From Rickettsiales bacterium (GTDB lineage Bacteria > Pseudomonadota > Alphaproteobacteria > TMED109), in assembly GCA_002689905.1 (NCBI GenBank), contig NZIN01000021.1, positions 1 to 32,523 of the forward strand: 32,523 nucleotides of DNA, written 5' to 3'. Under the pieces are notes generated by a model. It was given only the letters and a program-made list of their open reading frames with translations. It searched no databases and was not told the DNA's origin. The number at the start of each line of letters is the position of its first letter. Positions within the stretch are counted from its first letter, which is position 1. Positions 3,312-27,589 of the stretch are shown here, in pieces. The position numbers and the translations under genes are program-made.

Positions 3312-3312
3312 T

Positions 3313-5166
3313 ATGGCGTCCACAAAACTAGACATTTCAGAATTAGATTTTGACCAACTTAAATCAAATCTAAAATCATTTTTACAAAGTCAATCAGAAT
3401 TTTCAGATTACAATTTTGAAGGTTCAGGTTTTGCTGTTCTTTTAGATGTTCTAGCATACAATACTCACTATCTAGGTTTCAATGCTAATATGTTGGCAAA
3501 CGAAATGTATCTTGATAGTGCAGATGTAAGAGCCAATGTTGTTTCTCTTGCAAAGATGATTGGTTATACTTCTGCAAGTGCAAAGGCACCTGTGGCAAGT
3601 TTAGATATTACCGTTAATGACGCAACTGGTACTACTCTAACAATGGACAAAGGACAAACATTTACAACTTCAGTAGATGGAACAACTTATAACTTTATTA
3701 CAAATACAGATTTAACAATTACGCCAGTAGATGGTGTATTCAAATTTTCTAGTGTACCAGTTTATGAAGGTACACCTATAACTTTTAGATATACGGTTGA
3801 TAGTACAGACGCAGACCAAAAGTTTTTAATACCTAGTGTAAATGCTGATACTTCAACTTTAAGAATAAGAGTTCAAACAAGTTTAACAGATACAACTAGT
3901 GAAACATTTACAAATGTAAGTGGTCTAACTAATTTAAGTGATACTTCTGCTGTTTACTTTTTAAGTGAAACAGAAACAGGTAAGTTTCAAATTACTTTTG
4001 GTGATGGAGTACTAGGTAAAAAATTATCAAACGGAAATATCGTAATACTAGATTACATAGTTACAAATAAAGATGAAGCCAATGGTGCAAGTACATTTAC
4101 ACCTGCTGGTAACATAGGTAACTTTTCTAATTTAACGGTTGCAACCGTATCAAATGCTCAAGGTGGTTCTGAACCTGAAAGTAAAGAAAGTATTAGATAC
4201 AATGCACCATTACAATATACAGCACAGGACAGAGCAGTAACAACTTCTGACTATGAAGGCAAAGTAAGGTCAATATATCCTAATGCACAATCAGTTAGTG
4301 CTTGGGGTGGTGAAGATGATGAGACACCTATCTATGGTGTAGTAAAAATTGCAATCAAGGCCGCAAGTGGTTCAACTTTAACAACACAAACAAAATCAGA
4401 TATTGTTTCTAAACTAAAAGAATATAATGTTGGTTCTGTTACACCACAAATCGTAGACCCAGAGATTACATCTATTCTTTTAAATACAAGTGCAAAATAT
4501 AATGCTTCTGCAACTACTAAAGACGCTGAAACATTAAAGGCAAACATAATTACAAACTTAACAAACTATAATACTTCAACATTACAAAAATTTGATAGTG
4601 TTTTTAGATTTTCAAAAGTTTCAACACTTATTGATGGAACAGACGCAAGTATTCTATCAAACATTACAACTATTAAAATTAGAAAGAGTTTACAACCTAC
4701 TATTAATAGTTCATTAAAATATAACATCTACTTTAGAAATGGTTTATATAATCCACACACAGGACATAACTCAACTGCTGGTGGTATATTAACTTCAACA
4801 GGTTTTAAAGTAAGTGGTAATACTAATGAACAATTTTTAGATGATGACGGCAATGGAAATGTAAGAGCATATTATCTATCTGGTGCAACAAGAGTTTATA
4901 CAAACTCAACGCAAGGTACTATTGATTATACAACAGGTGCAATTACAATTAACTCACTACAAGTAACAGAAATTTCAAATATAAGAGGGAGTGCTTCTTC
5001 AGTTATAGAATTAACCGTACAACCTGCTTCAAATGACATTGTACCAGTAAGAGACCAGATTATAGAATTAGATATTTCTAACTCAACTATCTCGGTTCAG
5101 AAAGATACCTTTGTTGCTGGAAGTTCAGACGCTGGTGTTGGTTATACTACAACTAGTGCATACTAG
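3313..5166 (+). CDS. 6: Baseplate wedge subunit, gp6-like (baseplate J-like)
   Basis: Directly follows gp25. FDQLKSNLKSFLQSQSEFSDYNFEGSGFAVLLDVLAYNTHYLGFNANMLANEMYLDSA...AQDRAVTTSDYEGKVRSIYPNAQSVSAWGGED. Confidence 0.92.
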   Translation: MASTKLDISELDFDQLKSNLKSFLQSQSEFSDYNFEGSGFAVLLDVLAYNTHYLGFNANMLANEMYLDSADVRANVVSLAKMIGYTSASAKAPVASLDITVNDATGTTLTMDKGQTFTTSVDGTTYNFITNTDLTITPVDGVFKFSSVPVYEGTPITFRYTVDSTDADQKFLIPSVNADTSTLRIRVQTSLTDTTSETFTNVSGLTNLSDTSAVYFLSETETGKFQITFGDGVLGKKLSNGNIVILDYIVTNKDEANGASTFTPAGNIGNFSNLTVATVSNAQGGSEPESKESIRYNAPLQYTAQDRAVTTSDYEGKVRSIYPNAQSVSAWGGEDDETPIYGVVKIAIKAASGSTLTTQTKSDIVSKLKEYNVGSVTPQIVDPEITSILLNTSAKYNASATTKDAETLKANIITNLTNYNTSTLQKFDSVFRFSKVSTLIDGTDASILSNITTIKIRKSLQPTINSSLKYNIYFRNGLYNPHTGHNSTAGGILTSTGFKVSGNTNEQFLDDDGNGNVRAYYLSGATRVYTNSTQGTIDYTTGAITINSLQVTEISNIRGSASSVIELTVQPASNDIVPVRDQIIELDISNSTISVQKDTFVAGSSDAGVGYTTTSAY

Positions 5167-5169
5167 TAG

Positions 5170-7725
5170 ATGGCAAAGTTTAGTAAAAAGGTTACAAATC
5201 TTCTATCAGGTCAGGTACCTGAATTTGTATTAAGCGACCACCCCAAATTTTTAGAATTTTTAAAAGCGTACTACACATTTATGGAGTCCGCAGAGTTAGG
5301 TATTAGTGAAAGTCAATCTACAGATGGTATCTTACTAGAAACTGAAACTGGACAAAGTAATAATCTTTTACTTGACGCTAGTAGACTAGGTTCAGAAGCA
5401 ACTCAAATAGACACAGGCGATAAAATATTACAAGAACAATCTTCTTATGGTAAGTTTACTTTTGGTGAAATAATTAAAGGCCAAACTTCTAATGCAGAAG
5501 CAAGTATCTTACAAGAAGATTTAAGTAGTAACAGATTAATTATTTCTGCTCAAGATAAGTTTATAGATGGTGAAACTATTGTAGGGTTATCTTCTGGTGC
5601 TTCAGGTATTGCAGGAAGATATAAACCAAATCCTGTTCAGTCAATTCAAGACTTACTTAATTTTAGAGACCCCGATAAGGTCATTCAATATTTCTTATCT
5701 CAATTTAGAAATGAATTTTTAAATACTATACCCGAAGATTTAGCAGATGGTGTAAACAAAAGAGAATTAATTAAAAGAATAAACTCTTTGTATAGAACAA
5801 AGGGTACTGCAAAAGGTCACGAATTATTTTTTAGATTACTATTTGGTATTAACTCTGAAGTATTTTATCCTAGAGAACAAATGCTTAGAGTATCAGATGG
5901 TGAATTTACATTTAACAAAATATTAAGATGTATTACACCTATAGGAGATAATGGACTATTAATTGGTAGACAAATTACTGGCGAAACTTCTGGTGCAACT
6001 GCAATGGTAGAAAATGTAACTAGATTTAATATTGGTGATGAATTAGTATCTGAATTTCTTTTAGGTGATGATAGTATCGTAGGTACTTTTCAAGTAGGAG
6101 AAAAAATTAGAGGTACTGCAACTGATACAGACGATTTATATATCAAGTCAACTATTACAGGTATACCTGGAACATTTACTATTACAAATGATGGTTCATT
6201 TTCTAAAACAACTGACACCGTAGAATTAATAGGTGGTGGTCTTGGTTCACTTTGTCAAGTTAACTCAATTGGTCAAGGACCTATTACAAGTTTTTATATT
6301 AATGCGGCTGGTACACAATATCAAATTGGTGACCAATTAGTTTTCAATAACGCAAATACAGATGGTGGTGGAGCAATCGCTGAAGTCGCTGTAGTTAATG
6401 GTGCAATCGCAGGAGAAAGTTCAACGGGTTACGACCATATAATTTTTGAAGAAGCAACAAGTAGAAACGATATTAATCCAGGCGATAAAATAGTTTTAGA
6501 AAGTGGTCTAGGAGATATTACAGATATAAGATTGATTGATGGTGGTACAGGTTATAAAACTACACCAACCGTTTCTATTACAAGTACTAATGGTGTTAAC
6601 GCAGAGATATATCCATATGGAGATGAGATAGGTAAATTACTAGAAATTAAAATTGCAGAAACAGGTCGTTCTCACGAAACTGCACCAACACCTCCAACGG
6701 TATCAATACCTCAATCAATTATTGTTTTACTTGCAAACGGAAGTTATGTTGTAGGTGAAACCGTAACAGGTGGAAGTTCAGGTAGTACAGGTATTGTAAT
6801 AGGTTGGGATAATACAAGAGGTTTATTAAGATTAAAAAGTGTATCAGGAACATTTACTGGTCACGAAGTATTAACTGGTAGTACTTCAGGTACAACTGGT
6901 CTAATGGCAAAGACTGACCCTGCTGTTTCAACGGTAGATGTTGTTAGTGTTGCAACAAGTGAAGGTAGATATATTTCAGAAGATGGTCACTTATCAGAAA
7001 CAACTATGAAGATACAAGATAGTTTATACTTTCAAGATTTTTCTTATGTTATTAAAGTAGGTCGTACTATTGATGAATGGCGAGACGCATTTAAAAAGAC
7101 AATGCACCCTGCTGGTTTTTACTTTACTGGACAAGTTAATATTGAAAGTAGAATAAACTCAAAAATGAGAATGCCAGTTATTGGTAGAGTTACTGGTGTA
7201 TCTGCAAGTCCATTCTTATCTATTCTTAATACATTATTTGGTAGTGTATTTGGTAGAAGACTTGGAACAAATACAGATGGTACTACTCAAAGAGCAAACG
7301 CATTACTAGGTGTACCTGGCGATGTTGTACAAAGTGCAAAATCACCTTTTTCTACAACGACAAGGGATGTTACTTTATCAACGGTTCCAATATCATTTAG
7401 ATTTCAATTCAAACCTTTTTACAACTTTAGAACGGTTAATACAAACTTTGGTTCTGTATACGCTGGTCCTAAATTAAAAGGATTTGATAAGAGATTTCAA
7501 GGCGTAATGAATACAAGTGCGATGAATTGGGCAAGAGTAGCAGAATTAAAGGCAATAGGTACAAATACACCTGCCGATGGTACTGACATTCAATATGGCG
7601 ATTTATCAACAATTGCGAAGACTTATATTACAATGCCTGTAGAGATACTTGTACCTCAAGGTAGATTTAGTAACACGCAAAGAAAATTTGATAGTAATGT
7701 ATCCAAATTTGATAGTAGCGTCTAA
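5170..7725 (+). CDS. Large virion structural protein, baseplate wedge (gp7-like candidate by position)
   Basis: 851 aa between gp6-like and gp8-like genes. Repeated GE-I-G-(S/T)SGATG modules. Confidence 0.7.
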   Translation: MAKFSKKVTNLLSGQVPEFVLSDHPKFLEFLKAYYTFMESAELGISESQSTDGILLETETGQSNNLLLDASRLGSEATQIDTGDKILQEQSSYGKFTFGEIIKGQTSNAEASILQEDLSSNRLIISAQDKFIDGETIVGLSSGASGIAGRYKPNPVQSIQDLLNFRDPDKVIQYFLSQFRNEFLNTIPEDLADGVNKRELIKRINSLYRTKGTAKGHELFFRLLFGINSEVFYPREQMLRVSDGEFTFNKILRCITPIGDNGLLIGRQITGETSGATAMVENVTRFNIGDELVSEFLLGDDSIVGTFQVGEKIRGTATDTDDLYIKSTITGIPGTFTITNDGSFSKTTDTVELIGGGLGSLCQVNSIGQGPITSFYINAAGTQYQIGDQLVFNNANTDGGGAIAEVAVVNGAIAGESSTGYDHIIFEEATSRNDINPGDKIVLESGLGDITDIRLIDGGTGYKTTPTVSITSTNGVNAEIYPYGDEIGKLLEIKIAETGRSHETAPTPPTVSIPQSIIVLLANGSYVVGETVTGGSSGSTGIVIGWDNTRGLLRLKSVSGTFTGHEVLTGSTSGTTGLMAKTDPAVSTVDVVSVATSEGRYISEDGHLSETTMKIQDSLYFQDFSYVIKVGRTIDEWRDAFKKTMHPAGFYFTGQVNIESRINSKMRMPVIGRVTGVSASPFLSILNTLFGSVFGRRLGTNTDGTTQRANALLGVPGDVVQSAKSPFSTTTRDVTLSTVPISFRFQFKPFYNFRTVNTNFGSVYAGPKLKGFDKRFQGVMNTSAMNWARVAELKAIGTNTPADGTDIQYGDLSTIAKTYITMPVEILVPQGRFSNTQRKFDSNVSKFDSSV

Positions 7726-7732
7726 AACTGGT

Positions 7733-7740
7733 TATAAATA
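7733..7740 (+). promoter_or_regulatory. T4-like late promoter (TATAAATA)
   Basis: Exact motif 24 nt before ATG 7765. Confidence 0.65.
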
Positions 7741-7764
7741 TATTAGTAAATAGGAAAGAATAAT

Positions 7765-9384
7765 ATGGCTAAACAAACAATAGGATTAGGAAGTAGTGCA
7801 AACGACGGAACTGGTGATAGTCTCCGAGTTGGTGGTGATAAGATAAACGATAATATCAATGAAATCTATACTGCAATAGGTGATGGTACTGATTTAAAGA
7901 TTACTACTGCTGGTGCTTCTTCAAACCAAGTTCTACAATGGTCAACATCAAATAACAGATTTGAACCTACAAACTCTGCGGCTGCTGGTGATATATCAGT
8001 AGATACAACTCCGCAATTAGGTGGTGATTTAGATGTAAACGGAAGTAAAATTGTATCTACATCAAACTCTAATATAGAAATACTACCTCACGGTACTGGA
8101 AGAATTAAACTAGACGCTGTAACTTTTCCTAATGACGCTGGAACTGCAAACTATGTACTTGCTACAGATGGTTCAAGTGCAATGTATTGGAAACAAGTTG
8201 GTTCTAATATAACTTTATCAAATGGTTCAACTACAGATAATTATGTAATTGGTAACACATTATTGTTTTCTGCTGGTGCAGGATTAACTTCAAGTATTTT
8301 AGATGATACGGTTAAATACGATATTGATACTTCTGTAGTAGTTAACTTATCAGACGCACAAACTTTATCAAACAAAGTTTACGACAACCCGAATTTTACA
8401 GGTACTTCTCTTGGAACAGGTATCTTTAGACAATCAACACTAGGTTCTTTTATTGCTCAAGGAGCAACTTCATTGGCTGCATTTCAAAGTGCCGCTTCAT
8501 ATGCTGGTGCCTTTGGTGTTGATACAACAACTCATAAAGCTTATTATGCTTCAAACTCAACTTGGAATGAAATATTAAGTTCAACATCTTCTATTGACGC
8601 ATTATCAGATGTAGATACAACTACACAGGCACCTTCAAGTGGTCAAACACTTATATGGAATGTCGGTGCAAGTGCATTTAGACCTGGTACAATAACAACT
8701 AGTGTATCTTCTGATACTGCACCAAGTCTTGGTGGTAATTTAGATACTGCTGGTTACACGGTTCAAGGAACTGGTAAACTATCATTAAGTGGTTCTGGTT
8801 CAATGGCAAGATTTGATTTTGCCAATACAGCAAGTTTTCCAACTGCGTCTAGTAATGCAGGTGGTTTTGCTGTTGCAACTGGTTCATTAAAATCATATTT
8901 TGCTACTGCGTCTGGTTGGATTAGACACTTAAATGAAAACGATAGTATTGACGCATTTTCAGATGTAGACACAACAACTTCTGCACCATCATATGGACAA
9001 GTATTAGTGTATGAAAATGTTGGTGGTACTGGAAGATGGAGACCAAATGATTATACTCCTGCAACCAGAGTATCAGCACAATTTAATGTAACAAATAATG
9101 GTTCAACTGATTATGTGTTTAGTGGAGACGGATTTCCTACTAATCAGAATGACCCTGTGTTATATTTAAAGAAAGCACATACTTATCAATTTGTAGTAAA
9201 TGCAAGTGGACACCCTTTTCAAATATTAACGGCTTCAGGTGGTTCACTTTATAGTTTTGGAGTAACTAATAACCAACAAGCCGTAGCAACAATAACATTT
9301 ACGGTGCCAATGAACGCACCATCAACATTGTATTATCAATGTCAGGCACACTCGGGAATGGGAAATACAATTAATATCTCTTAA
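7765..9384 (+). CDS. Fiber-like virion protein with C-terminal cupredoxin-like domain
   Basis: N-terminus GLGSSANDGTGDSLRVGGDKINDNINEIYTAIGDG is typical of T4-like structural proteins. Internal duplicated modules. C-terminal cupredoxin-like segment. Confidence 0.75.
   Translation: MAKQTIGLGSSANDGTGDSLRVGGDKINDNINEIYTAIGDGTDLKITTAGASSNQVLQWSTSNNRFEPTNSAAAGDISVDTTPQLGGDLDVNGSKIVSTSNSNIEILPHGTGRIKLDAVTFPNDAGTANYVLATDGSSAMYWKQVGSNITLSNGSTTDNYVIGNTLLFSAGAGLTSSILDDTVKYDIDTSVVVNLSDAQTLSNKVYDNPNFTGTSLGTGIFRQSTLGSFIAQGATSLAAFQSAASYAGAFGVDTTTHKAYYASNSTWNEILSSTSSIDALSDVDTTTQAPSSGQTLIWNVGASAFRPGTITTSVSSDTAPSLGGNLDTAGYTVQGTGKLSLSGSGSMARFDFANTASFPTASSNAGGFAVATGSLKSYFATASGWIRHLNENDSIDAFSDVDTTTSAPSYGQVLVYENVGGTGRWRPNDYTPATRVSAQFNVTNNGSTDYVFSGDGFPTNQNDPVLYLKKAHTYQFVVNASGHPFQILTASGGSLYSFGVTNNQQAVATITFTVPMNAPSTLYYQCQAHSGMGNTINIS
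9067..9384 (+). other. Cupredoxin-like (plastocyanin/azurin type) domain within CDS 7765..9384
   Basis: HTYQFVVNASGHPFQILT...ATITFTVPMNAPSTLYYQCQAHSGMGNTINIS: upstream His and C-x2-H-x2-M in cupredoxin order. Confidence 0.6.
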
Positions 9385-9392
9385 AGATGATG

Positions 9393-9400
9393 TATAAATA
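9393..9400 (+). promoter_or_regulatory. T4-like late promoter (TATAAATA)
   Basis: Exact motif 24 nt before ATG 9425. Confidence 0.65.
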
Positions 9401-9424
9401 TAGACAAGAACATAGGAAAAAACA

Positions 9425-10885
9425 ATGCCAGCAATAATAACAAGCAAATTTAGACGAAATAACGCTCAACAATTTGAGGAATCTTTTGGTGAAGCGTCTC
9501 CTAATATCTATTATCTAGGTATTGGTAAACCAACCGCTTTTGGAACAAAGAATAGAGCAGATGATAGAACAGACAATATCGGAACTGATAGTGCTCCTGT
9601 AACTCCTGCTGATAGTGTACAAGACGAATACGATACTTTTGACGACTTGCTGGCCGCAAAAAGAATTCAGTCTTCCGATGTATCTTTCGCCGCTCCAAGA
9701 ATAAATTGGGTAACTAATACAACTTACGATATTTACAGACACGATTATGGTAATAGAATTACAGGTACTACAAATGTACAGGCTGCAAACTCTGGTGCTA
9801 CTAATCTATACGATAGTAACTTCTATGTTTTAACTTCAAGTTTTAATGTCTACAAATGTTTAGACAATAATAATAATAGTGCTTCAACTTCTGAACCAAC
9901 TGGTACAGGACAGAATCCTATTACAACTGCGGACTCGTACATATGGAAATATATGTTTACAATGTCTGCGTCTGCTCAGGCAAACTTTTTGTCTACAGAC
10001 TTTATGGGTGTATCATCTAATAGTACAATATCAAACAATGCTACAGATGGTGATTTAAATGTAATTAAAATTAAGGCTCCTGGTACTGGTGGTAGTAATG
10101 GAACATTTACTGGAATACCAGTTAGAGGTGATGGTACTGGCGGAACTTGTTCAGTAACAATTTCTTCTGGTTCTGTAACTGCTGTATCTGCAACAGGAAC
10201 ACCAACTGGTTATAGTTTTGCATATGTCAGAGTGGCAGATATAAATGCTGCTGGTGGTGGTGCATTAACAGGTGCTGAATTAGATGTAATTATTGAACCT
10301 AAAGGTGGTCACGGTTTTGACCCTTTTGAAGAATTAGGTGCTTTCTTTGTTATTCTTAATACTTCTTTTGAAGGTGCTGAAACTGCAAACTCTGGAGACT
10401 TTACAACTGCAAACGATTTTAGAAGAGTTGCATTAATTAGAGACCCGAAGGCAAGTGGTTCTGCCGCTACAACTTCAACATTGAGAGCAACAAAGGCTGT
10501 CAGATTGAATAGTGGTGCAGGTACATTTACTTCAGATGAAAAAATTACACAAACAAACACAGGCGCTGTTGGTAAAGTTGTTCAATACGATAGTGCAAAT
10601 AGAATTTTATTTTATACACAAACAAGGTATAATGACGAAGGCGTAGACGCAAACGGAAATCAAACTGCATTTTCAGGTACTAATCTGATAACTGGTGCAA
10701 CTTCTTCCGCAACTGGCACGCCGACAGGTAATACAGAAACGGTTAACAATGTTTCTTTAGTTGGTGGATATTCTTCTTCTGAATTGGATGCTGATAGTGG
10801 CGATGTAATGTACATAGAAAACAGAGCACCAGTAACGAGAAGTGTTGACCAAACAGAGAATGTTAAGTTAATTATTGAATTTTAA
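9425..10885 (+). CDS. 8: Baseplate wedge subunit, gp8-like
   Basis: MPAIITSKFRRNNAQQFEESF...NIYYLGIGKPTAF...VYKCLDNNNNSASTSEPTGTGQNPITTADSYIWKYMFTMS resembles cyanophage gp8. Position conserved. Confidence 0.8.
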   Translation: MPAIITSKFRRNNAQQFEESFGEASPNIYYLGIGKPTAFGTKNRADDRTDNIGTDSAPVTPADSVQDEYDTFDDLLAAKRIQSSDVSFAAPRINWVTNTTYDIYRHDYGNRITGTTNVQAANSGATNLYDSNFYVLTSSFNVYKCLDNNNNSASTSEPTGTGQNPITTADSYIWKYMFTMSASAQANFLSTDFMGVSSNSTISNNATDGDLNVIKIKAPGTGGSNGTFTGIPVRGDGTGGTCSVTISSGSVTAVSATGTPTGYSFAYVRVADINAAGGGALTGAELDVIIEPKGGHGFDPFEELGAFFVILNTSFEGAETANSGDFTTANDFRRVALIRDPKASGSAATTSTLRATKAVRLNSGAGTFTSDEKITQTNTGAVGKVVQYDSANRILFYTQTRYNDEGVDANGNQTAFSGTNLITGATSSATGTPTGNTETVNNVSLVGGYSSSELDADSGDVMYIENRAPVTRSVDQTENVKLIIEF

Positions 10886-16994: not shown

Positions 16995-17228
16995 ATGAGT
17001 AGACATTTAAAAGTACGACATTTTCAAAATTTAGTTAGAGATATTAATTCAAACGCAATTGTTAATACTAGTACTTCTGAATACGAAATTTATATGGAAA
17101 GAAAAAGATTAAGAGATACAGAGAAAGACAAATTAAAGGATATGTGTAGAGAGATAAATACTTTAAAGCAAGAATTATTTGAAATAAAAAATATATTAAA
17201 GTTAATGGGACAAAACAATGGCAGTTAG
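16995..17228 (+). CDS. Hypothetical protein, predicted coiled coil (77 aa)
   Basis: Charged heptad-like C-terminus. Overlaps the next ORF. Confidence 0.65.
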   Translation: MSRHLKVRHFQNLVRDINSNAIVNTSTSEYEIYMERKRLRDTEKDKLKDMCREINTLKQELFEIKNILKLMGQNNGS

Positions 17229-18519
17229 ACAAGTAACAGAAACAGATAGTTTAGATAAATTAAGAATAGAGTTTAATGCTCTTGCGGCTTCAGATTTTGG
17301 AGATATCGCAACATTGGATTCAACTCTTTCTGCAACAAGTGTAATCGGTGCTGTAAACGAAATTAACGCAATCGCAATTGCCGCTGCTGGTTTCATATTA
17401 TCAGATGGTTCAAACACTCAGGCGGTTGCTTCTGGTAACACGATGTTAGTAACAACTGGTACTGGATTAACTGCAACGGTATCATCACCTGATACATTAA
17501 ATCTTTCATTAAATACAAATTTAACAGGCCTAACATCAATTGATGTTGCAAGTACGGCTGAAATTTCAAACATCGCAATTGGTACTTCTTCTATAACTTC
17601 TGCAAGTGGTACAATTGACTTTGGTAACGAACAATTAAATACTACTGGTGGTATAACTGCTGGTGGTACATTAGTAGGCGCTGGTTTAACAATCAATGGT
17701 GCGTCTATGCAATTTGAAGGTGCTACTCCAGATAGTTTTGAAACTACTTTTAGAGTAGATGACCCAACTGCTGATAGAGTTATTACATTGCCAGATATTT
17801 CTGGTACCGTAATTACAACTGGTGATACTGGTTCAGTTACAGGGACAATGATGGCTAACTCTGCTGTAAGTACAAACCAAATCGCAGACAATTCAGTTAC
17901 GGTTGCAAAATTATCGGGATTTGCAAGTGCAACATTAACGGTTGACACTTTAGTTGCAAACACTATTACTGGTGTTGCTTCATCTGCTACTGCTGTAGCA
18001 TTAACTTCTGATAACACTTCAAACGCAACAAGATTTTTAACTTTTGCAGACGCTGGTTCTGGAAATCAGGCATTAAAAACTGATAGTTCCTTATACTACA
18101 ATCCATCAACGAATGTTTTAACTACAACTGCTACACAGGCTAACTATGCTGACTTGGCAGAAAAATATTTAACAGACAAAGAGTATTCAATAGGTACCGT
18201 TTTATGTATAGGTGGTCCTGCTGAAGTAACTCAATGTGTTGAAGACCATTGTCATAAAGTAATAGGTGTTGTTTCAGAGAAACCTGCCTTTACAATGAAT
18301 AGTGGATTAGAAGGTACAACTACAATGGTTGCAATGACTGGTAGAGTACCTGTAAGAGTTTGTGGTAAAGTAAGAAAAGGTGATATGATAGTATCTTGTT
18401 CTAAACCTGGTTGTGGAAGACCAGAGGCAGAACCAAGACCAGGAACATTAATAGGTAAATCATTAGTCAATGACGATAGAGAAGAGGAAAGACTTATTGA
18501 AATCGTAGTTGGCAAATAG
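17218..18519 (+). CDS. Tail fiber protein with Cys-rich variant of the conserved YADLAEKY C-terminal domain
   Basis: Fiber repeats, then YADLAEKYLTDKEYSIGTVLCIGGPAEVTQCVEDHCHKVIGVVSEKPAFTMNSGLEG...GRVPVRVCGKVRKGDMIVSCSKPGCG...VVGK. Confidence 0.8.
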   Translation: MAVRQVTETDSLDKLRIEFNALAASDFGDIATLDSTLSATSVIGAVNEINAIAIAAAGFILSDGSNTQAVASGNTMLVTTGTGLTATVSSPDTLNLSLNTNLTGLTSIDVASTAEISNIAIGTSSITSASGTIDFGNEQLNTTGGITAGGTLVGAGLTINGASMQFEGATPDSFETTFRVDDPTADRVITLPDISGTVITTGDTGSVTGTMMANSAVSTNQIADNSVTVAKLSGFASATLTVDTLVANTITGVASSATAVALTSDNTSNATRFLTFADAGSGNQALKTDSSLYYNPSTNVLTTTATQANYADLAEKYLTDKEYSIGTVLCIGGPAEVTQCVEDHCHKVIGVVSEKPAFTMNSGLEGTTTMVAMTGRVPVRVCGKVRKGDMIVSCSKPGCGRPEAEPRPGTLIGKSLVNDDREEERLIEIVVGK

Positions 18520-18528
18520 GAGTATATT

Positions 18529-19008
18529 ATGGATGAACAAACAACCCTTTGGATTAACCGATTAAAAGAAGAAATCCAATCACACGACAGATACGAAGCA
18601 AGACAACTATTTTACATAGACGATAATGGTCTTGACCGAGAGGTTAAAGAACATATGTCTTTTGGCGAATGGTTAAGAGAATACGATAGATATAAAACTA
18701 TTAAGGTGGAAGGTTTAGAAGACACACCTTGGTTGAGAGAAGTTTTAGATGAAGTTGTGTTAAATATCACAGGCAAAAAAAGACAAGATATTCATTTATT
18801 TGTAAATCAAAAACCAGGTGTAAGTTTCAAAGCACATAGAGACGATAAAGATGTTTACCTATATGTTGTTAAAGGTAAAAAGATTGTAGACCTAGATGGC
18901 ATAAAACAAATTGTCTATGATGACGAAGGAGTTATCATAAAAGAAGGTGTTAAACATTTTGTTGAGAATGAAGCAGATACTTGGGGGTTAAGTATTGGAG
19001 TTATATAA
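18529..19008 (+). CDS. Cupin/JmjC-like or 2OG-Fe(II) oxygenase-like protein
   Basis: FKAHRDDKDVYLYVVKGKKIVDLDG...GVIIKEGVKHFVENEADTWGLSIGVI: HxD plus distal His in a cupin-like strand order. Confidence 0.55.
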   Translation: MDEQTTLWINRLKEEIQSHDRYEARQLFYIDDNGLDREVKEHMSFGEWLREYDRYKTIKVEGLEDTPWLREVLDEVVLNITGKKRQDIHLFVNQKPGVSFKAHRDDKDVYLYVVKGKKIVDLDGIKQIVYDDEGVIIKEGVKHFVENEADTWGLSIGVI

Positions 19009-20060
19009 TGACGCTAAATTATGCGCCTATGAATTGGATGTTTTATTTAAAAACAACCGAAACCTGTAATCTAAATTGTAAACATTGTTTCACTTCAGGT
19101 ACAAATGGACCTAAAGTATATTGGAATACTGATAAAGTAGTACGATGGTTACAAAACTTCAGAAAATACAATTTTCAAAAAAACGATATTGCTCATTTAG
19201 AGTTTCACGGTGGTGAACCTTTTTTAGTACCTGTATCTGAAATGCAATATGTTTATGATAGAACAAAAGACTTATGGGAACATCAATCATTTGGTGTTAC
19301 AACTAATTTAGTCTTCAAACTAAAACAAGAACACATAGATTTTATGAAAGGTCCTCTTGGTGGTAGATGTGGTACTTCTTGGGACCCGAATATTCGTTTT
19401 GCAAACGAAAAACAATCAAACTTATGGAAAAGTAATGTTGAGACTTTACTATCTGAAGGTATTGATATAAAACTTTTCATATCCGTAACTAAAGACACCG
19501 TAAATATTGAACCTATTGAATTATTGAAATGGGTAAAAGATTTAGGCGTACAAGAAATGGCATTAGAAAGATTGACTGGAAATGGTAATGCAAATTTACA
19601 CCCAGAGATATTTCCATCAAATATAGAACAAGATAAATGGTTTCTAAAAATGCACGAACAATCTATACAATATAAGACTAGAGAGTGGTTTGATAATGAG
19701 TTTTTAGAGACAATATATTCTAAATTTGAAACTGGTAATACAAAACAAGGTACTTTTTGCAGAGATTGTGAGCAGAAATTGTTTACTTTAAACGCAACTG
19801 GTACTATAGGTGGTTGTCCTAACGCAAGTCCCGAGTTTAATTTCGGTTCTCTGGATGACCCTATGGTAGACCTTATAAATAATCCTAAGAGATTAAACAA
19901 TATTGCTTGTGAAGTTGCAAGAAATACTGAATGTTTTGATTGTGAAGTATTTAAGTATTGTGGTGGCGATTGTCACCAACTAGAATGGCAAAATGGTATA
20001 TGTGGTGCCCCTAAATCTCTTATGAAACAATTGGCACAGAGGAATGAAGCAAGATGGTAA
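19008..20060 (+). CDS. Radical SAM enzyme with SPASM-like C-terminal Cys cluster
   Basis: CNLNCKHC (C-x3-C-x2-C), HGGEPF, then CRDCEQKLFTLNATGTIGGCPN...CEVARNTECFDCEVFKYCGGDCHQ...C. ATG 19008 overlaps the previous TAA. Confidence 0.9.
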   Translation: MTLNYAPMNWMFYLKTTETCNLNCKHCFTSGTNGPKVYWNTDKVVRWLQNFRKYNFQKNDIAHLEFHGGEPFLVPVSEMQYVYDRTKDLWEHQSFGVTTNLVFKLKQEHIDFMKGPLGGRCGTSWDPNIRFANEKQSNLWKSNVETLLSEGIDIKLFISVTKDTVNIEPIELLKWVKDLGVQEMALERLTGNGNANLHPEIFPSNIEQDKWFLKMHEQSIQYKTREWFDNEFLETIYSKFETGNTKQGTFCRDCEQKLFTLNATGTIGGCPNASPEFNFGSLDDPMVDLINNPKRLNNIACEVARNTECFDCEVFKYCGGDCHQLEWQNGICGAPKSLMKQLAQRNEARW

Positions 20061-20827
20061 CATTAAACGACCCGATAACAAGTCAAAATATAGTAGATAG
20101 ATTTGAAGAGTTAGTAACAGATATTGCAGATACCCAAATAGTTTGGGGTACAGATAATCTACCTGGTCACTCTGCATTTTCAAGTGCTGACTTTGCAGGT
20201 GTAGTAGACGGAATGGAATTAGTTTTAACTAACGCCACTGGTACATTTACTGCAAACGAAACGGTAACAGGTTCTATATCAGGAACGGTAGGTACCGTAG
20301 TTACATATTCAAGTAACAATTTAAAAGTCAGAAATATAGTTGCAGGTTCAGGTCAAACAAATTTTTTACAAAACGATATTCTAACAGGTTCAAATTCAGG
20401 TGCTCAAGGTACAATCAGTACAATGACTACCATATCAGCAGTTACTATTGGTATTACAGGAACTCAAATAGGTAACTCTGGCACAGCCATTAATGCAGGT
20501 AACATTTATCAAACATTGAAAAATGAAATGAATACTTACACTAATATTAAAAATACAACTGCGTCTGTTACAATGACTGGTGCAGGACAACAATATTCAG
20601 ACACACAAATTGCTCACAATTTAACTTCAGTAAGAGTAACACTAAATCCTAGTCAACCATCATATCTAAACTCTGGACGACTTATAACTTCTGCAAATTT
20701 AGAAACATTTATTGCTGACCTTGCAAACGCATATAATACTGAAAGAGGAAATACTTATGGACTTGCAAAAACTATATGTCATAGTTCTTGTCATAGTTCT
20801 TGCCACGGTAGTAGAGGAAGAAGATAA
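20054..20827 (+). CDS. Virion-type structural protein with C-terminal Cys/His-Ser-Ser repeat tail
   Basis: LNDPITSQNIVDRFEELVTDIADTQIVWG...GTFTANETVTGSISGTVGTVV... (same module as the baseplate proteins), ends TICHSSCHSSCHGSRGRR*. ATG overlaps the radical SAM stop. Confidence 0.75.
   Translation: MVTLNDPITSQNIVDRFEELVTDIADTQIVWGTDNLPGHSAFSSADFAGVVDGMELVLTNATGTFTANETVTGSISGTVGTVVTYSSNNLKVRNIVAGSGQTNFLQNDILTGSNSGAQGTISTMTTISAVTIGITGTQIGNSGTAINAGNIYQTLKNEMNTYTNIKNTTASVTMTGAGQQYSDTQIAHNLTSVRVTLNPSQPSYLNSGRLITSANLETFIADLANAYNTERGNTYGLAKTICHSSCHSSCHGSRGRR
20777..20824 (+). other. CHSSCHSSCHGSRGRR C-terminal motif (candidate modification substrate)
   Basis: Tandem CHSS repeat ending in a basic tail at the extreme C-terminus of CDS 20054..20827. 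Confidence 0.8.
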
Positions 20828-21021
20828 TGATTGAAGTAATATGGACTTTAATATTAACTGCTTGTATGAATGATAGTTCTTGTCATTTTCAAGAAGTAAA
20901 AGAATTTAAAACAAAAAATGCTTGTATAGAATTAAAAGAAGAAATCTTATCTATACCAGCAGATGGTCCTTGGAAAACAATTGATTATAATTGTTTACCT
21001 AAAGGAGGAATGGAAGCATAA
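20827..21021 (+). CDS. Small Cys-containing protein with N-terminal hydrophobic segment (64 aa)
   Basis: MIEVIWTLILTACMNDSSCHFQEVKEFKTKNACIELKEEILSIPADGPWKTIDYNCLPKGGMEA. Overlapping start and stop. Confidence 0.65.
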   Translation: MIEVIWTLILTACMNDSSCHFQEVKEFKTKNACIELKEEILSIPADGPWKTIDYNCLPKGGMEA

Positions 21022-21695
21022 TGATTGAAAGTATAGTACCAATTGAATTGAAAAACTTAAAAAAATATTTTGAAGATAAAACTGAAACTTACTTATTAGA
21101 TTATAAAAATAGTACATTAAAAGGTGCTCAGTTTCTAACATATTTAAGTAATCTTGATATACCTTGCGATATTAAGAATATGGACGATGAATTAGTATCA
21201 GAATATCTAAACTCTCAAATGTTAGTAAATATACCGACATTAGAAAAAGAAGTAATCGCTATATTATTTCAACATAAAGGTTTATCACAAACGGATAAAT
21301 ATAGTAGTATAATAGAAAAGAATAAAGACATACTAGACAAATGGGCAAGTAAACTAGAAAGTCTACCTTTATACAATATGTCTATTGTTGGTGAAGGTGC
21401 ATTTAAAGACTTTCTTGAAACTTATCCTAAAGATGAGACAGAAGATGTTAGAGGTATAAATTTTGTTAGTATGTTGAAACACAAAGACTTCTATTTTTAT
21501 TATAATAGACCAAACGAAAGTATTGTAAAAAATTATGTAAAATACTTTCAAGAGTATATGTTCAAAGGTAAGTCGTTATATGATTTTTGGGCAAATACAA
21601 ACAATAGTATGTTTCTTATGACTTGGGCTGTCGCTGAAGGCAAGTTCAATACTAAAGAATACAATACTGCAAAACAAAAAGATTTAGGAAAATAA
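21021..21695 (+). CDS. Hypothetical protein (224 aa)
   Basis: Operon ORF with preceding GGAGGA RBS. No family recognised. Confidence 0.7.
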   Translation: MIESIVPIELKNLKKYFEDKTETYLLDYKNSTLKGAQFLTYLSNLDIPCDIKNMDDELVSEYLNSQMLVNIPTLEKEVIAILFQHKGLSQTDKYSSIIEKNKDILDKWASKLESLPLYNMSIVGEGAFKDFLETYPKDETEDVRGINFVSMLKHKDFYFYYNRPNESIVKNYVKYFQEYMFKGKSLYDFWANTNNSMFLMTWAVAEGKFNTKEYNTAKQKDLGK

Positions 21696-21696
21696 A

Positions 21697-22815
21697 ATGC
21701 TACACTTATTTAATAAAGTATATCTAAACTTTGACGATAGTATAGATTGTCATACTAACAGATATGTTATATCTGAAGAAGCAGGTAATGAAATGCACCA
21801 GGAACTTCAAACAACATATAGAGGTACTTTACTTAATTTTGCAAAGAATAGAAACGAAATGCAAACCAAGTATAATGGTTTAGATAATTTCTTTGATAGT
21901 GTATGTACAAAACAAAAAGAATTGAATACAAAAGTAATTATATATTGTGATACACAGGCATTTTTAGAATTGTCAACAATATGGTTAAAGTCTGTATTAC
22001 CTTTCGCAGAAAGTTCAGACATAGAAAAATATTTACAAATATTCTTACACCACGAAAAAATTATTGCAAATACACAACTACAGCCTACGCACACGCTAGC
22101 GCTCACGAAGTTATATGCAGGTCTAGGTGATGTTGTAGGTTACACAAATGTAATGCCAACACTAGATTTAGATAAATTAAAAGCACTTGATTTAGATTAT
22201 TCATTAGAGTTATTACTAGGTGAATATTTTGCAGGTGCAGATACACACGAAGATAAATTACTTTCTACTTACTTAAAATTTCTAAAAAGATTTTATAAAG
22301 AAACACTAACAGATATTAGAGAAGGTGCGGCTCTTAATCTGTTGAATACAAATTTGCAAACACAACTAGGTTATACTACAAGTGATGTTGACTTAACTGC
22401 CGACAATGTATTTGAAGGCATTACACCTTTTGCTCCGTTTGCTGATACAGATGTATTTACAACTAATCCAACTGCAAATGTTGGTGCTGTAAATATTGCT
22501 AATATAGATAATATGTCAAGTGATAAACAAACTGCATTAAAAGATTTAATTATATCATTACAGACTTTTGAAGAAAAGGTAACTGCTGACGATTTCTATA
22601 TGAAATATTTAGATAAGGCTTGTCAAAGTTCATTATCTAAAACAGATTTTGAAACAATTATAAATGAAACGGTGAATAGTCCTTCTGCATTGTCCTTTAT
22701 ACCTAGATTTGATATTGGTAATATTAATTATTCTTTTTTACAATATCTATTCTCACTTAAAAAAGATAACGATACAGACACATTAGCAAAGTATAGACTA
22801 TTCGCAAACTCGTAG
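21697..22815 (+). CDS. Hypothetical protein (372 aa)
   Basis: Operon ORF between two radical SAM genes. No family recognised. Confidence 0.7.
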   Translation: MLHLFNKVYLNFDDSIDCHTNRYVISEEAGNEMHQELQTTYRGTLLNFAKNRNEMQTKYNGLDNFFDSVCTKQKELNTKVIIYCDTQAFLELSTIWLKSVLPFAESSDIEKYLQIFLHHEKIIANTQLQPTHTLALTKLYAGLGDVVGYTNVMPTLDLDKLKALDLDYSLELLLGEYFAGADTHEDKLLSTYLKFLKRFYKETLTDIREGAALNLLNTNLQTQLGYTTSDVDLTADNVFEGITPFAPFADTDVFTTNPTANVGAVNIANIDNMSSDKQTALKDLIISLQTFEEKVTADDFYMKYLDKACQSSLSKTDFETIINETVNSPSALSFIPRFDIGNINYSFLQYLFSLKKDNDTDTLAKYRLFANS

Positions 22816-22823
22816 GAGTTTAA

Positions 22824-23876
22824 ATGCGAGAGTTCTTATTAGACCCCAAAAGAGACCCCGAACAAGAGTACACAATTCATCTATTTGAATTTTGTAATTT
22901 AAGGTGTGCTTTCTGTTGGCAAAATCACGAAGACACAATTGGCATTGACAATGTAATGAATAAACTTCCGTCAGTAGAGAAGTTTATATCAAAAGAGTTA
23001 ATGCAAAAAGTTACCTTTAACATAATGGGTGGCGAAGTCTTTGCACCTGCAATTTATAATAGAAACTTAAACGAGGGTTACAAACTATTTGTAAAAGGCA
23101 TACAAAAAATATGCGACCATTACGATAAGAAATGTGTAATGAATTGGGTATCTAATTTAGTTACTACAGAAGATGGTAATGAGTTAATAAGAGATTTAAT
23201 ATCTTGGTCAAGAGAAGAAGGTATAGAAACAAGACTTACTACAAGTTATGACCCTAGAGGTAGATTTAATAAAAAAGATTTTGAGATATTTAAATCAAAT
23301 GTAGAATATTGGGGAGACGAAGTAACTTGTTTTTCTTGTCTATTGACAAAACCTAATATCAATTATTATTTAAATGAAGGTGATGAATACTTTGATTATC
23401 TGTATAAACAAGGTAAGTATATTTACTTTGATTATTATATGCCAGATGAACACGCAAAGTTTAATATGCCTAGTGATGAATTACTATTAAAGTTTTTTAA
23501 ACATTGTGTTGACAAATATCCAAATGTTCATCCTGTTAGAGATTGGATATTCAACAAAAAGAATTTTGCAAGTTGCAGAGTTTCTAAATTAATATTAGCA
23601 GATGGTACATTATGTCAATGTGGAAATTTAGTACAGAGTGAAAAATCATTAAGTCAATATAAATCTCCAATCAAAAGAAAAGACAATAGTATAATAGAAA
23701 ATTCTTTTTTAGAAAAGTATAATTGTGCTAGTTGTGAATTTTTAGATAGATGTACACTTGGTTGTTTTATGAACCACGATTATAGATATAAGGAGGAGTT
23801 GAATGAGTGTGTCTACAAACTTACGCACAGATATATTGAAGATGTACGACTACAGCGAAACTATATCGCTACCTAA
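22824..23876 (+). CDS. Radical SAM enzyme with SPASM/twitch-like C-terminus
   Basis: FEFCNLRCAFC, MGGEVF, C-terminal LADGTLCQCGNL...CASCEFLDRCTLGCFMNHDYRYKEELNEC. Confidence 0.88.
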   Translation: MREFLLDPKRDPEQEYTIHLFEFCNLRCAFCWQNHEDTIGIDNVMNKLPSVEKFISKELMQKVTFNIMGGEVFAPAIYNRNLNEGYKLFVKGIQKICDHYDKKCVMNWVSNLVTTEDGNELIRDLISWSREEGIETRLTTSYDPRGRFNKKDFEIFKSNVEYWGDEVTCFSCLLTKPNINYYLNEGDEYFDYLYKQGKYIYFDYYMPDEHAKFNMPSDELLLKFFKHCVDKYPNVHPVRDWIFNKKNFASCRVSKLILADGTLCQCGNLVQSEKSLSQYKSPIKRKDNSIIENSFLEKYNCASCEFLDRCTLGCFMNHDYRYKEELNECVYKLTHRYIEDVRLQRNYIAT

Positions 23877-24384
23877 AATCAATACACCTGATAATGTTGA
23901 TGTTGTATTAGATAACATACCAACAAAATATCCTTATCTACCTAGATTGTGTAACAAACAAGGAATAGTATTAGTATGGTGGGGTACAAAAGATACTGAC
24001 CCAGAGATTTACGAAGACGCAATTAATAGTAAAGACGAAGAACAATGGTTAACTTTAAACGATAATAAAAAATTAATAAAAGGTCTTGCAATGGTACACA
24101 CATATGATAATGAAGTAATTGTTAGTTGTATTAAGTATGCAGGATATATGAATAGAAAACCTTGGAAAGAAGTCTTATCATTTCTTGAAAATATATATTC
24201 TACACTAGTAAATTTATATGGCAATCGTAAGATGATAATTCCTTCAGGTTCTTATTTAGAGCATATTCATTTAACAATGAACCAAATGAAAATACAAAGA
24301 CAACCTTACCACTATAAGAATATGAGAAGATATGGTTTTAAGAAACAGGATAATTATTGGGTAAGAAATGGGACCGAAATATAA
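23803..24384 (+). CDS. Hypothetical protein (193 aa)
   Basis: Overlaps the end of the upstream radical SAM gene by 74 nt. AAGGAGGAG RBS upstream of ATG 23803. Confidence 0.65.
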   Translation: MSVSTNLRTDILKMYDYSETISLPKINTPDNVDVVLDNIPTKYPYLPRLCNKQGIVLVWWGTKDTDPEIYEDAINSKDEEQWLTLNDNKKLIKGLAMVHTYDNEVIVSCIKYAGYMNRKPWKEVLSFLENIYSTLVNLYGNRKMIIPSGSYLEHIHLTMNQMKIQRQPYHYKNMRRYGFKKQDNYWVRNGTEI

Positions 24385-24493
24385 AAAATATATTTTGTAT
24401 GACAAGAATGGTAAAGTTATTATTATTACAACTGATAAAAAAGTTTACTATTACTATAAGGTAAAATATGGACTTAATAATAAAACCAACTGA
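24368..24493 (+). CDS. Small Lys/Tyr-rich peptide (41 aa)
   Basis: MGPKYKKYILYDKNGKVIIITTDKKVYYYYKVKYGLNNKTN*. Overlaps both neighbours in the coupled operon. Confidence 0.45.
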   Translation: MGPKYKKYILYDKNGKVIIITTDKKVYYYYKVKYGLNNKTN

Positions 24494-25562
24494 ATTATGT
24501 AATTTCAAATGTACTTTTTGTTCTAGCACACAATTAACAAATGAAAAAAAGAATTGGTTAAAACACGACCAGATATTTGAGTTTCTAACTAGATTTCCTG
24601 AAACTAAAACTATCATCGTAAATGGTGGTGACCCATTGATGATGGCACCTGATTATTATTGGAAGATTATAAAATGGTTAGACGAGAGAGATTATTCTAC
24701 TTCACTTGCATTAACAACAAACTTATGGCCGTTCTATAAGAAACCTAGTCTATGGGTTGACTTATTTAATAATGATAGAGTAGGTGTTACTACTTCATTT
24801 CAATATGGTGGTGGTAGATTAAAAGGCGACTATACAGAGTTTACAGAAGAAGACTTTTGGAAGTGTTCAAATGCAATGTTAGAGTATTGTAATTATAGAC
24901 CAGATTTTATATCTGTTATTACAAGAGAGAATGAACACAACGCAATTAAAAATGTAGAGTTGGCAAAGTATATGTCAGAAGATGTACAACCACAAGGTAC
25001 TCTTCATAACTTCTGGCGACAAGAAAAAACAGGTGTAGAATGTAAACTAAATTATGCGATGATGAGTGGCGAACAGGAAGAGCCGTTTTTGTTATCGGAT
25101 ATATATTCTTATTATGTAGAAATATATAACAAAGGTTTAGCACCTTGGGAATTTAATACTAGACAAATGATGTTAGCAATAGGTGACCGTGCTACAACTT
25201 GTCCTTTAAGTAGAAAATGTGATGAAGGTATCAGATGTCTACAACCCGATGGTGACTATTATAGTTGTGGTGCTTTTGGTGATGATAAAGATAAGGCAAT
25301 AGATTTTAAAGAAGAAATGTCAGGTAAGTTTTTTACTCCCTTACAAGACGACATAAAATTAAGTACAATGAAAAAGGGTTGTTATACTTGCCCTATGTTT
25401 AATATATGTAATGGTTGCAGAAAGACTATTAAAGATTATAAAGAGGCAGGTGTTGTAGAAAAACATTGTGAAAAAATGAAGACTATAGGTAAATATATTT
25501 TAAGAGCAAATAAAAGTGATTTACAGATGACGCCATATGTAAATGAGGAGGCAACTTGGTAA
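24468..25562 (+). CDS. Radical SAM enzyme with SPASM-like C-terminus
   Basis: TELCNFKCTFC, VNGGDPL, C-terminal CPLSRKCDEGIRCLQPDGDYYSCGAF...GCYTCPMFNICNGCRKTIKDYKEAGVVEKHC. Confidence 0.9.
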   Translation: MDLIIKPTELCNFKCTFCSSTQLTNEKKNWLKHDQIFEFLTRFPETKTIIVNGGDPLMMAPDYYWKIIKWLDERDYSTSLALTTNLWPFYKKPSLWVDLFNNDRVGVTTSFQYGGGRLKGDYTEFTEEDFWKCSNAMLEYCNYRPDFISVITRENEHNAIKNVELAKYMSEDVQPQGTLHNFWRQEKTGVECKLNYAMMSGEQEEPFLLSDIYSYYVEIYNKGLAPWEFNTRQMMLAIGDRATTCPLSRKCDEGIRCLQPDGDYYSCGAFGDDKDKAIDFKEEMSGKFFTPLQDDIKLSTMKKGCYTCPMFNICNGCRKTIKDYKEAGVVEKHCEKMKTIGKYILRANKSDLQMTPYVNEEATW

Positions 25563-26089
25563 AACATATAGAAAATGTTTTAGTTAACGGTGTATTTCCA
25601 CACAACGATAGAGTGCCGTTTGCATTTTTTGAAGGTATAGAAATACCTTTTAGAAATGTAGGTGAATATGGAGTTGCTGTACATACACCACAATTAGACA
25701 ACGCAATCAAAATATGCCATAATTATTTAGGTGATAAATATATTAAACTGCTGTCTAACAAATATAGTTTATATGGACAACCAGAAATAGTTAATGGTGT
25801 TGACGCACCATCTACTAATTGGCATAATGATTTGAAAGAAGGAGCAAATGTTGCTATATTAATGTATTTTACAAGTGCAAGTACACCAAAGACTGGTGGT
25901 TGTCTAAAAGTAAGAAATGCAGAAACAAAAAGTTTGAGTTGTATGATATACCCAGCGAAAGCAGATTTAGTTATTTTAAATCACAACAAAGTCTGGGAAC
26001 ATAAAGTTGAAGAATTTAAAAGAACCGTAGACGAAACAGGTATCTTTTCAGATGAACGAATAGTAGGATGTTTTGATTTTAATATATGA
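25556..26089 (+). CDS. Fe(II)/2OG-dioxygenase-like (prolyl-hydroxylase-like) protein
   Basis: NWHNDLKEGANVAILMYFTSASTPKTGGCLKV...DLVILNHNKVWEHKVEEF...: HxD...H arrangement with GG turn. TTG start overlapping the previous stop. Confidence 0.6.
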   Translation: MVKHIENVLVNGVFPHNDRVPFAFFEGIEIPFRNVGEYGVAVHTPQLDNAIKICHNYLGDKYIKLLSNKYSLYGQPEIVNGVDAPSTNWHNDLKEGANVAILMYFTSASTPKTGGCLKVRNAETKSLSCMIYPAKADLVILNHNKVWEHKVEEFKRTVDETGIFSDERIVGCFDFNI

Positions 26090-26655
26090 AAAATAAGTTA
26101 TTTCCAAATGGCAGAATACACGCCTCTGAAGAACAAGATTTAGATTACTCAAATGGGTACCTTGCATTATCAGTAAGTCCGTTTGATAAAAATTTTGATA
26201 AAGAAGTTGAGAAAGGTGTATTATCTCATTGCCACGAATTTATAAGAAAAGGTTTTTTACCTATATCAAGTTGTGAAGGACATTTCACAAAGAAACATTA
26301 TATGCCATTTTATATTATGATTGCAATTGGTGGTAAAAATAGATTAGATAGAATAAATGATATAATTAATAAGACAAGTAAAATACCTGGCATACATTAT
26401 AAGATTGCTGAACAACAAGCAAATGTAAAAGGTGATATAAGAGTTAATTATAGTTTAGAAAAAGAACAAGAGTATGCTGAATTAAATAGATTGTTTATGA
26501 GAAATCATCAAGAGTATACTTATCTCTGGATAGGTTTATTTAAAGATGATAGAAATTGGAAACAAAATTTTGTAAGAAGAATAATGTTTAATAAATGTAA
26601 GAAGATGTTACTAAAAAGTATTGAGGAATTTGATTATGACGCTGCCGAAGATTAA
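26086..26655 (+). CDS. Hypothetical protein (189 aa)
   Basis: Operon ORF, 4-nt overlap with upstream. Contains GFLPISSCEGHFTKKHYMPFYIMIAIGG. Confidence 0.65.
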   Translation: MKNKLFPNGRIHASEEQDLDYSNGYLALSVSPFDKNFDKEVEKGVLSHCHEFIRKGFLPISSCEGHFTKKHYMPFYIMIAIGGKNRLDRINDIINKTSKIPGIHYKIAEQQANVKGDIRVNYSLEKEQEYAELNRLFMRNHQEYTYLWIGLFKDDRNWKQNFVRRIMFNKCKKMLLKSIEEFDYDAAED

Positions 26656-27589
26656 CCTATCAATTAATCCATCGTATCATTGTAACTTTAGATGTCATTG
26701 GTGTTATCTTACACCTGAACAACTAGGTGATACAAAAACTATAGACCATATAAGACTAAATGACTTATTGGCTGAAGTTGCTACACATAGAGAAATAAAT
26801 CATATTGATTTGTATGGTGGTGAGATAGGTATATTAAAGAAAGACAAATTACAAGCAATAACTAATACAATAAAATTTTATTATAAAGATAAGATAAACA
26901 TAAACACAAATTTATCTGTATTAAGAGAAGAGTTTTTTAATCCTGAATATTATTTAAGTGTATCTTGGGATTTAACTACTAGACAAGATTATCGTTTAGT
27001 AAGAGAGAATATGGCAAAGTTGCCTGTAGACTTTTCAGTACTATGTCTTGCAACTAGAGAAGTAATGGCACATAGTGGTGAACACTTTTGGACTATGATG
27101 AATAGAATAAAATTTGAGAATAGTCATATGCAAAGTGTTGAGATAAAACCATATAGTAGTAATCAAGCAAATGACCTTAAAGTAAAGGATTCAGAATATG
27201 AAGATTATATTTTAAAATTACTACAAGATGAAGACGCAACTAAACGAGGTGACTATCAATTTGTAAATAGAGACTTAATTAAAGAAAGTCTAAACGGACA
27301 AAACAACGCATACAGCGATGACCATTTATATATTACGCCAAATGGTAAACTTGCTGTGTTAGATTTTGACGAAGACGATAAAGAATTCTTTTTAGAGTTA
27401 GATAGTTTCGCAGATTATGAAGTATGGTGTCAAAAAGAAAAAGAAAAGAATATATCTGATATATGTCGTAAGTGTGAATATCTTGGTAGATGTTTAACTG
27501 AACATTACAGATATGTAAAAGATTTAACTGACGGCTGCAATGGGTATAGGTATCTGTTAGATACTTTTAAAATGAGATATGGCAAATAG
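26636..27589 (+). CDS. Radical SAM enzyme with twitch-like C-terminal Cys cluster
   Basis: SYHCNFRCHWC, LYGGEI, C-terminal CRKCEYLGRCLTEHYRYVKDLTDGC. Internal ATG 26636 preferred over 26621. Confidence 0.88.
   Translation: MTLPKINLSINPSYHCNFRCHWCYLTPEQLGDTKTIDHIRLNDLLAEVATHREINHIDLYGGEIGILKKDKLQAITNTIKFYYKDKININTNLSVLREEFFNPEYYLSVSWDLTTRQDYRLVRENMAKLPVDFSVLCLATREVMAHSGEHFWTMMNRIKFENSHMQSVEIKPYSSNQANDLKVKDSEYEDYILKLLQDEDATKRGDYQFVNRDLIKESLNGQNNAYSDDHLYITPNGKLAVLDFDEDDKEFFLELDSFADYEVWCQKEKEKNISDICRKCEYLGRCLTEHYRYVKDLTDGCNGYRYLLDTFKMRYGK

Follow-up and report, generated by a model that had tools for sequence, protein, structure and literature searches.

The precursors of ranthipeptide and thioether maturases are short peptides. 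Jumbo phages and T4-like marine phages have been described that carry genes for several radical SAM (rSAM) enzymes each (PMC12390700, PMC5332604, PMC5468394, PMC8066314, PMC11898562). According to passages of these papers, phage 332-Vera has eight rSAM genes within its structural-gene cluster, an arrangement called highly unusual, and a 183-kb T4-like marine genome has twelve. The passages available from the five papers name no substrate for the phage enzymes, and a literature text search for the C-terminal motif described below returned no relevant paper.

We analysed an rSAM cassette in the window, i.e. the whole 32,523-nt stretch of DNA under study (C30:1-32523), which is part of an 872-kb draft genome. 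The first rSAM gene, r1, precedes a gene whose product ends in a short Cys/His repeat, hereafter the tail. We put at roughly 75% the probability that, in large phages, the Cys/His tail of a protein from the tail/baseplate region is modified by r1 after translation, in a RiPP-like manner, and stays on its folded body. The main features are the following.

2886..10885, + strand: baseplate and tail genes located before the cassette (gp25, gp6, gp10-like 851-aa, tail-fibre connector and gp8 homologues)
18981..20060, + strand: r1, radical SAM/SPASM enzyme with CxxxCxxC, CX10GX4C and CX2CX5CX3C...C motifs, directly upstream of the tail gene and overlapping it
20054..20827, + strand: tail-bearing protein, 257 aa, with residues 1-241 forming a body that is divergent among relatives
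20216..20467, + strand: GETVTG-type structural module (approximately residues 55-138), common to the body of the tail protein and the 851-aa baseplate-type protein
20777..20824, + strand (exact coordinates): C-terminal tail CHSSCHSSCHGSRGRR, 16 residues, the proposed modification site

As the preliminary description had it, CHSSCHSSCHGSRGRR constitutes the last 16 residues of the protein, and the tail gene follows and overlaps the first radical SAM/SPASM gene, its ATG at 20054 giving a 7-nt overlap with the end of r1. The structural-protein character attributed to the body was borne out as well. Its GETVTG module aligns with the 851-aa baseplate-type protein encoded in the window (31% identity, E 3e-5) and, by predicted fold, resembles structural proteins of cyanophages. 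Since most homologues have bodies of 170-200 aa devoid of this module, we consider it an insertion of ~80 residues. In the AlphaFold2 model of the 257-aa protein, the pLDDT is 87 overall and ~50 for the tail, which is thus an unstructured end on a confident body, as expected for an exposed substrate. A PDB fold search with the body gave no significant match. The location of the gene among tail and baseplate genes and the shared module suggest that the protein is part of the virion.

DNA-pattern scans for CHxxCHxxCHG ending an ORF were run on 2.9 million viral contigs, many of which are fragments. Numerous ORFs end with CHxxCHxxCHGS, in most cases followed by R[GS]RR, and at least 112 distinct proteins have the tail at their exact C-terminus, as do all 12 close viral relatives of the window's protein. 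Among the matches listed, C1, H2, C5, H6, C9 and H10 are invariant in 101 of 101 16-residue tails, and R13, R15 and R16 are kept in 100 of the 101. The tail harbours HxS at three successive positions, with Ser occasionally replaced by Asn or Ala. It had been suggested that homologues be aligned to see whether the tail alone is conserved, and this is what we found: identity between bodies drops to 23%, or similarity is no longer detectable, and the tail is kept. At least three body families carry it with no profile similarity outside it (hhalign probabilities of 6.9, 0.1 and 0.2%). When the tail is included, two body families match with an E value of 1e-18, and the match is confined to the last 60 residues.

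The tail is neither a DNA element nor a chance repeat. The pS values are the same in the tail (0.47) and in the body (0.48), which argues for selection on the peptide rather than on DNA; the pN of the tail (0.12) is inflated by TCN/AGY serine switches. As for chance matches to the pattern, they are mostly found inside other reading frames or in low-complexity repeats, without rSAM genes. Binding of heme c (CXXCH) by the tail was also rejected, based on its CX3C spacing.

Some groups of tails end with CHSNCHGSCHGS[LI]; the CHGS[LI] group has kept the CH repeats without the RxRR end. The number of repeats ranges from three to five, in line with a modification unit that occurs in repeats. Extra repeats and no basic end characterize the tails CHTNCHSSCHSSCHSSCHGSSGGW (L068 545..1138, on a 504-kb viral contig) and CHSSCHYSCHSSCHGDGPGNGGGV (L039 5277..5849), each adjoining an r1-like gene. 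The CH repeat is therefore what all these tails share, and the basic end can be missing. It is common for RiPP enzymes to bind at one conserved segment and act on a different one, and a basic RxRR end would suit docking, so the tail might serve solely as a docking signal for r1, with the modified residues in the body. This is very unlikely, given that almost no residues are conserved between body families, in contrast with the invariant Cys and His residues of the tail, and that the CH repeats persist in the group devoid of RxRR. We thus retain the tail as the proposed site of modification.

Other arrangements were also encountered. In a tandem family (L063, L064, L080, L096, L171, L172, L178, L179, L199, L201 and L207), two overlapping genes code for proteins of ~110-145 aa that both end with CHxSCH[YQ]SCHGSRGRR, and the rSAM cassette is found several kb away rather than next to them. 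At L160 (6862..7998), a Bacteroidales membrane-protein-like ORF cut by the end of the locus contains a run of CHxS/CxxS repeats, and no rSAM gene was found within this 8-kb locus. tblastn searches of GenBank phages with the whole tail protein and with a 31-aa tail gave no match, owing to low-complexity filtering or divergence, and a search through r1 succeeded.

The co-occurrence of tails and rSAM genes proposed in the preliminary description holds both ways. Searching with models derived from the rSAM proteins of the window, we found an rSAM gene in 102 of 111 tail loci among the viral matches listed, versus 0 of 47 control loci collected with the same patterns but matching by chance (Fisher p 1.9e-31, a value that overstates certainty since related loci are not independent). 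Despite this kinship, the association holds across three body families, several groups of phages and one bacterial order. L039, L046 and L087 have variant or truncated true tails and were excluded from the tail loci and the controls alike; the C-terminal match in L130, which has no rSAM gene, is due to chance. In the usual layout, r1 immediately precedes the tail ORF (100 of 147 tail ORFs among the matches listed), and the ORFs without an adjacent r1 mostly belong to incomplete loci or to the tandem family. Conversely, using r1 alone as bait, a C-terminal CHxxCHxxCH tail is encoded downstream on the same strand in 76 of the 80 loci listed; the other four end at most 300 bp past r1, so that all 76 informative loci have a tail. 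Tails in phages lacking any rSAM gene would have argued against the pairing. A whole-record Pfam search of 18 records that are unusual or have no nearby rSAM gene detected rSAM in 16; of the 12 viral records without a nearby rSAM gene, 10 have one elsewhere, and the other two, in which none was detected, are viral fragments 33 and 36 kb long. All rSAM core and SPASM auxiliary Cys residues are kept in 94 tail-adjacent r1 homologues and are invariant in 17 diverse r1 proteins. A SPASM-type rSAM enzyme is thus encoded beside its candidate substrate, and the pairing of r1 and tail as enzyme and substrate is strongly supported.

The preliminary description had also envisaged a metal-binding tip. 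The tail would then fold around Fe or Zn through its six invariant Cys and His residues, as in iron-bearing spikes, and the rSAM enzymes would act elsewhere. Marine phage tail fibres with potential iron-binding domains have been reported (PMC11705849), and a PAAR-motif protein is also encoded on the window contig. Nevertheless, the C-H-x-x repeats contain no HxH motif, unlike histidine-type iron-binding tail spikes, and a metal site explains neither the conserved RxRR end nor the near-constant pairing of the tail with r1 across unrelated bodies. We consider this possibility unlikely, and modification of the tail by r1 remains our preferred reading.

The cassette extends on both sides of r1 and the tail gene, with a further gene of interest at the start of the contig.

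260..562, + strand: NifU-like Fe-S cluster assembly domain (PF01106, E 6.7e-24)
18529..19008, + strand: cupin-fold protein, conserved directly upstream of r1 (at least 148 loci)
21021..21695, + strand: conserved cassette protein of 224 aa, in phages and bacteria (at least 176 loci; AlphaFold2 pLDDT 91.5)
21697..22815, + strand: conserved cassette protein of 372 aa, no Pfam family (at least 157 matches in at least 149 loci)
22824..23876, + strand: r2, second radical SAM enzyme of the cassette
23803..24384, + strand: accessory cassette protein of 193 aa, in some relatives (at least 62 loci)
24468..25562, + strand: r3, third radical SAM enzyme, 50-61% identical to its homologue in cultured jumbo phages
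25556..26089, + strand: 2OG-Fe(II) oxygenase-like cassette protein
26621..27589, + strand: r4, fourth radical SAM enzyme

The confident model of the 224-aa protein has no significant fold match in the PDB and hence perhaps represents a new fold; based on this model, the protein is perhaps a candidate substrate-presenting partner. 2OG-oxygenase-like proteins recur in at least 89 of the fetched loci. No RRE/PqqD recognition domain was found with Pfam or NCBIfam in the enzymes or partner proteins. Just upstream of the cupin gene, 17218..18519 codes for a tail-fibre-like protein whose C-terminal region is rich in Cys; it recurs upstream of the cassette in close relatives. The NifU-like gene, a possible source of Fe-S clusters for the rSAM enzymes, fits the Fe-S assembly genes reported in rSAM-rich T4-like marine phages.

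Homologues of r1 with 41-49% identity are present in Agrobacterium phage Atu_ph07, Sinorhizobium phage Phosso, Burkholderia phages FLC6, FLC8 and SURPRISE13 and Pseudomonas phage pPa_SNUABM_DT01. We inspected five of these isolated jumbo phages (Atu_ph07, Phosso, FLC6, SURPRISE13 and DT01). In each, the gene after r1 codes for a protein annotated as 'hypothetical protein' that ends with CHxSCHxSCHxSRxRR or a close variant; r1 itself comes after a cupin or cupin-like gene, and more rSAM genes are found behind the pair, along with 2OG-oxygenase genes in several of them. FLC8 also has both genes, and its tail protein is the same as that of FLC6. As in the window, structural genes are close to the tail gene in Atu_ph07, SURPRISE13 and DT01. 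FLC6 and SURPRISE13 were already reported to have rSAM genes, and their cassette is the same as that of the window.

In GTDB genomes, real tails are few. Most pattern matches in genome contigs are due to chance, the only real ones being L150, L158, L162 and L167. Three real GTDB tails belong to one order, the predatory Bacteriovoracales: they were found in a Halobacteriovoraceae MAG, a Bacteriovoracaceae MAG and one further MAG. In two of these three MAGs, examined at length, the neighbours of the tail gene are ordinary chromosomal genes, and the gp25 baseplate gene is absent from all three. An r1-like gene is present in 13 of 130 Bacteriovoracales genomes, with a tail in five of the 13. No tail gene with an RxRR end was found in the other eight, indicating that r1-like paralogues can have other substrates. 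Such tail-less paralogues often adjoin a prepilin-like gene. Thus, in L311, L312, L314, L316 and L317, an r1 paralogue without a CHxS tail gene is found beside an r3-like rSAM gene, a gene for a small protein starting with MNRR and a prepilin-like gene, possibly reflecting the same chemistry on another surface protein.

The occurrence of tail proteins in bacterial chromosomes devoid of gp25, as well as their location inside an enzyme cassette, would be compatible with a role as non-virion partners or redox carriers (thiol donors or metallochaperones) for the rSAM enzymes rather than as their products. We regard this as highly improbable: the window's tail protein has a structural-protein module, and freely diverging bodies and tandem or duplicated tail proteins are more in line with a substrate than with a component of the catalyst. 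We keep the tail protein as the probable substrate of r1. Both Bacteriovoracales tail cassettes that we inspected have in their vicinity a gene for a prepilin-like protein fused to a tail-fibre chaperone domain (Peptidase_S74). The chromosomal cassettes at L304/L305 (G014:C7), L306/L307 (G016:C66) and L162 comprise two r1-like genes, r2-, r3- and r4-like rSAM genes and genes for the tail protein and the 224-aa homologue, and they adjoin such a prepilin-S74 gene. A gene for a B12-binding radical SAM methyltransferase-like protein is also present in a Bacteriovoracales cassette (L305 6571..8307), with a similar ORF at L306 13568..15277. Bdellovibrio recognizes its prey with S74 fibres (PMC10769870). 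The Bacteriovoracales tail cassettes resemble these MAT fibres, which are S74 chaperone adhesins, in that they adjoin a prepilin-S74 fusion; radical enzymes are not mentioned in PMC10769870. Together, these features suggest that a surface-contacting appendage is the common theme of the phage and Bacteriovoracales versions.

We propose that r1 is a dedicated radical SAM/SPASM enzyme that would act post-translationally on the tail CHxSCHxSCHxSRxRR. As with the precursor of a RiPP, the enzyme would both recognize the tail and modify it, here in place on a folded body of 110-290 residues, to which the tail would remain joined. From what is known of rSAM/SPASM biochemistry, r1 might abstract a hydrogen from a tail residue and link that residue to Cys, or otherwise alter Cys or His. 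The likely product would be a set of Cys-centred cross-links, i.e. thioethers to neighbouring residues or Cys-His links, and would give a surface-contacting appendage a tip that is rigid and possibly metal-competent. Additional modifications, on the tail or on other proteins, may come from the cupin, the 2OG oxygenases and the remaining rSAM enzymes. Catalysis on the tail, its chemistry (a thioether or other Cys/His cross-link), its place in the virion and a role in host contact are what we infer from these data. More tentatively, and with slightly more doubt than confidence, we envisage a new class of enzyme-installed, Cys/His-cross-linked tip common to the tail machinery of many giant phages and the surface appendages of predatory bacteria, with a dedicated rSAM cassette moving together with the tail between unrelated carriers.

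The combination, in many large phages and some predatory bacteria, of a near-invariant tail on otherwise unrelated proteins with one radical SAM enzyme, by which the tail is probably chemically modified, points to a mode of constructing phage parts that has not been described so far. It possibly answers the puzzle in phage papers of up to eight or more rSAM genes within the structural clusters of some giant phages, and it provides a specific candidate enzyme-substrate pair in phages already in culture. If true, RiPP-type chemistry would reach beyond small peptides to the proteins of viral particles, with viruses encoding a RiPP-like maturation of their structural proteins, and phage tails would be linked to the surface proteins of predators.

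How, then, does this system compare with those already described? The reading of the tail as an RiPP-type rSAM substrate, put forward in the preliminary description, stands as regards co-occurrence in both directions. It does not hold as regards family membership or precursor layout, as r1 scores under the cut-offs of known maturases, including those of the His-Xaa-Ser system, and the candidate substrates are proteins of 125-310 aa, conserved in their last 16 residues, rather than short leader/core peptides. The best NCBIfam matches of r1 are mostly peptide maturases, and among the named RiPP maturase families of NCBIfam tested, r1 is far under every cut-off. By sequence, the nearest solved structures are distant rSAM enzymes, including the anaerobic sulfatase-maturating enzyme and chain 5wgg, which we take to be CteB. 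As in the PapB (NF047865) and CteB/SCIFF ranthipeptide or thioether systems, an rSAM enzyme with a SPASM domain adjoins a protein with a Cys every four residues. PapB is the best match of r1 (E 4e-12), but at 45.9 bits for a cut-off of 340, and the motif is here at the extreme C-terminus of a 125-310-aa protein. The His-Xaa-Ser system (HxsA with HxsB and HxsC) shares with ours the HxS motif, present three times in the tail, and several rSAM genes in the cassette. Its maturases, TIGR03978 and TIGR03977, are both among the weak matches (r1, 31.8 for a cut-off of 370 with HxsB; r3, 30.6 for 267.9 with HxsC), and an invariant Cys before each HxS sets the tail apart. Lastly, the tail is itself a C-x-x-x repeat, as are the targets of the CXXX-repeat rSAM family (TIGR04115), for which our literature search returned no paper. 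r1 is a weak match to this family (23.8 bits for a cut-off of 350), and tail position 2 is always His, with an RxRR end being usual. Maturase scores far under the cut-offs and a large substrate with no short leader/core layout thus place the pair outside the named families; by analogy, the tail and r1 would work like an RiPP thioether or His-Xaa-Ser system.
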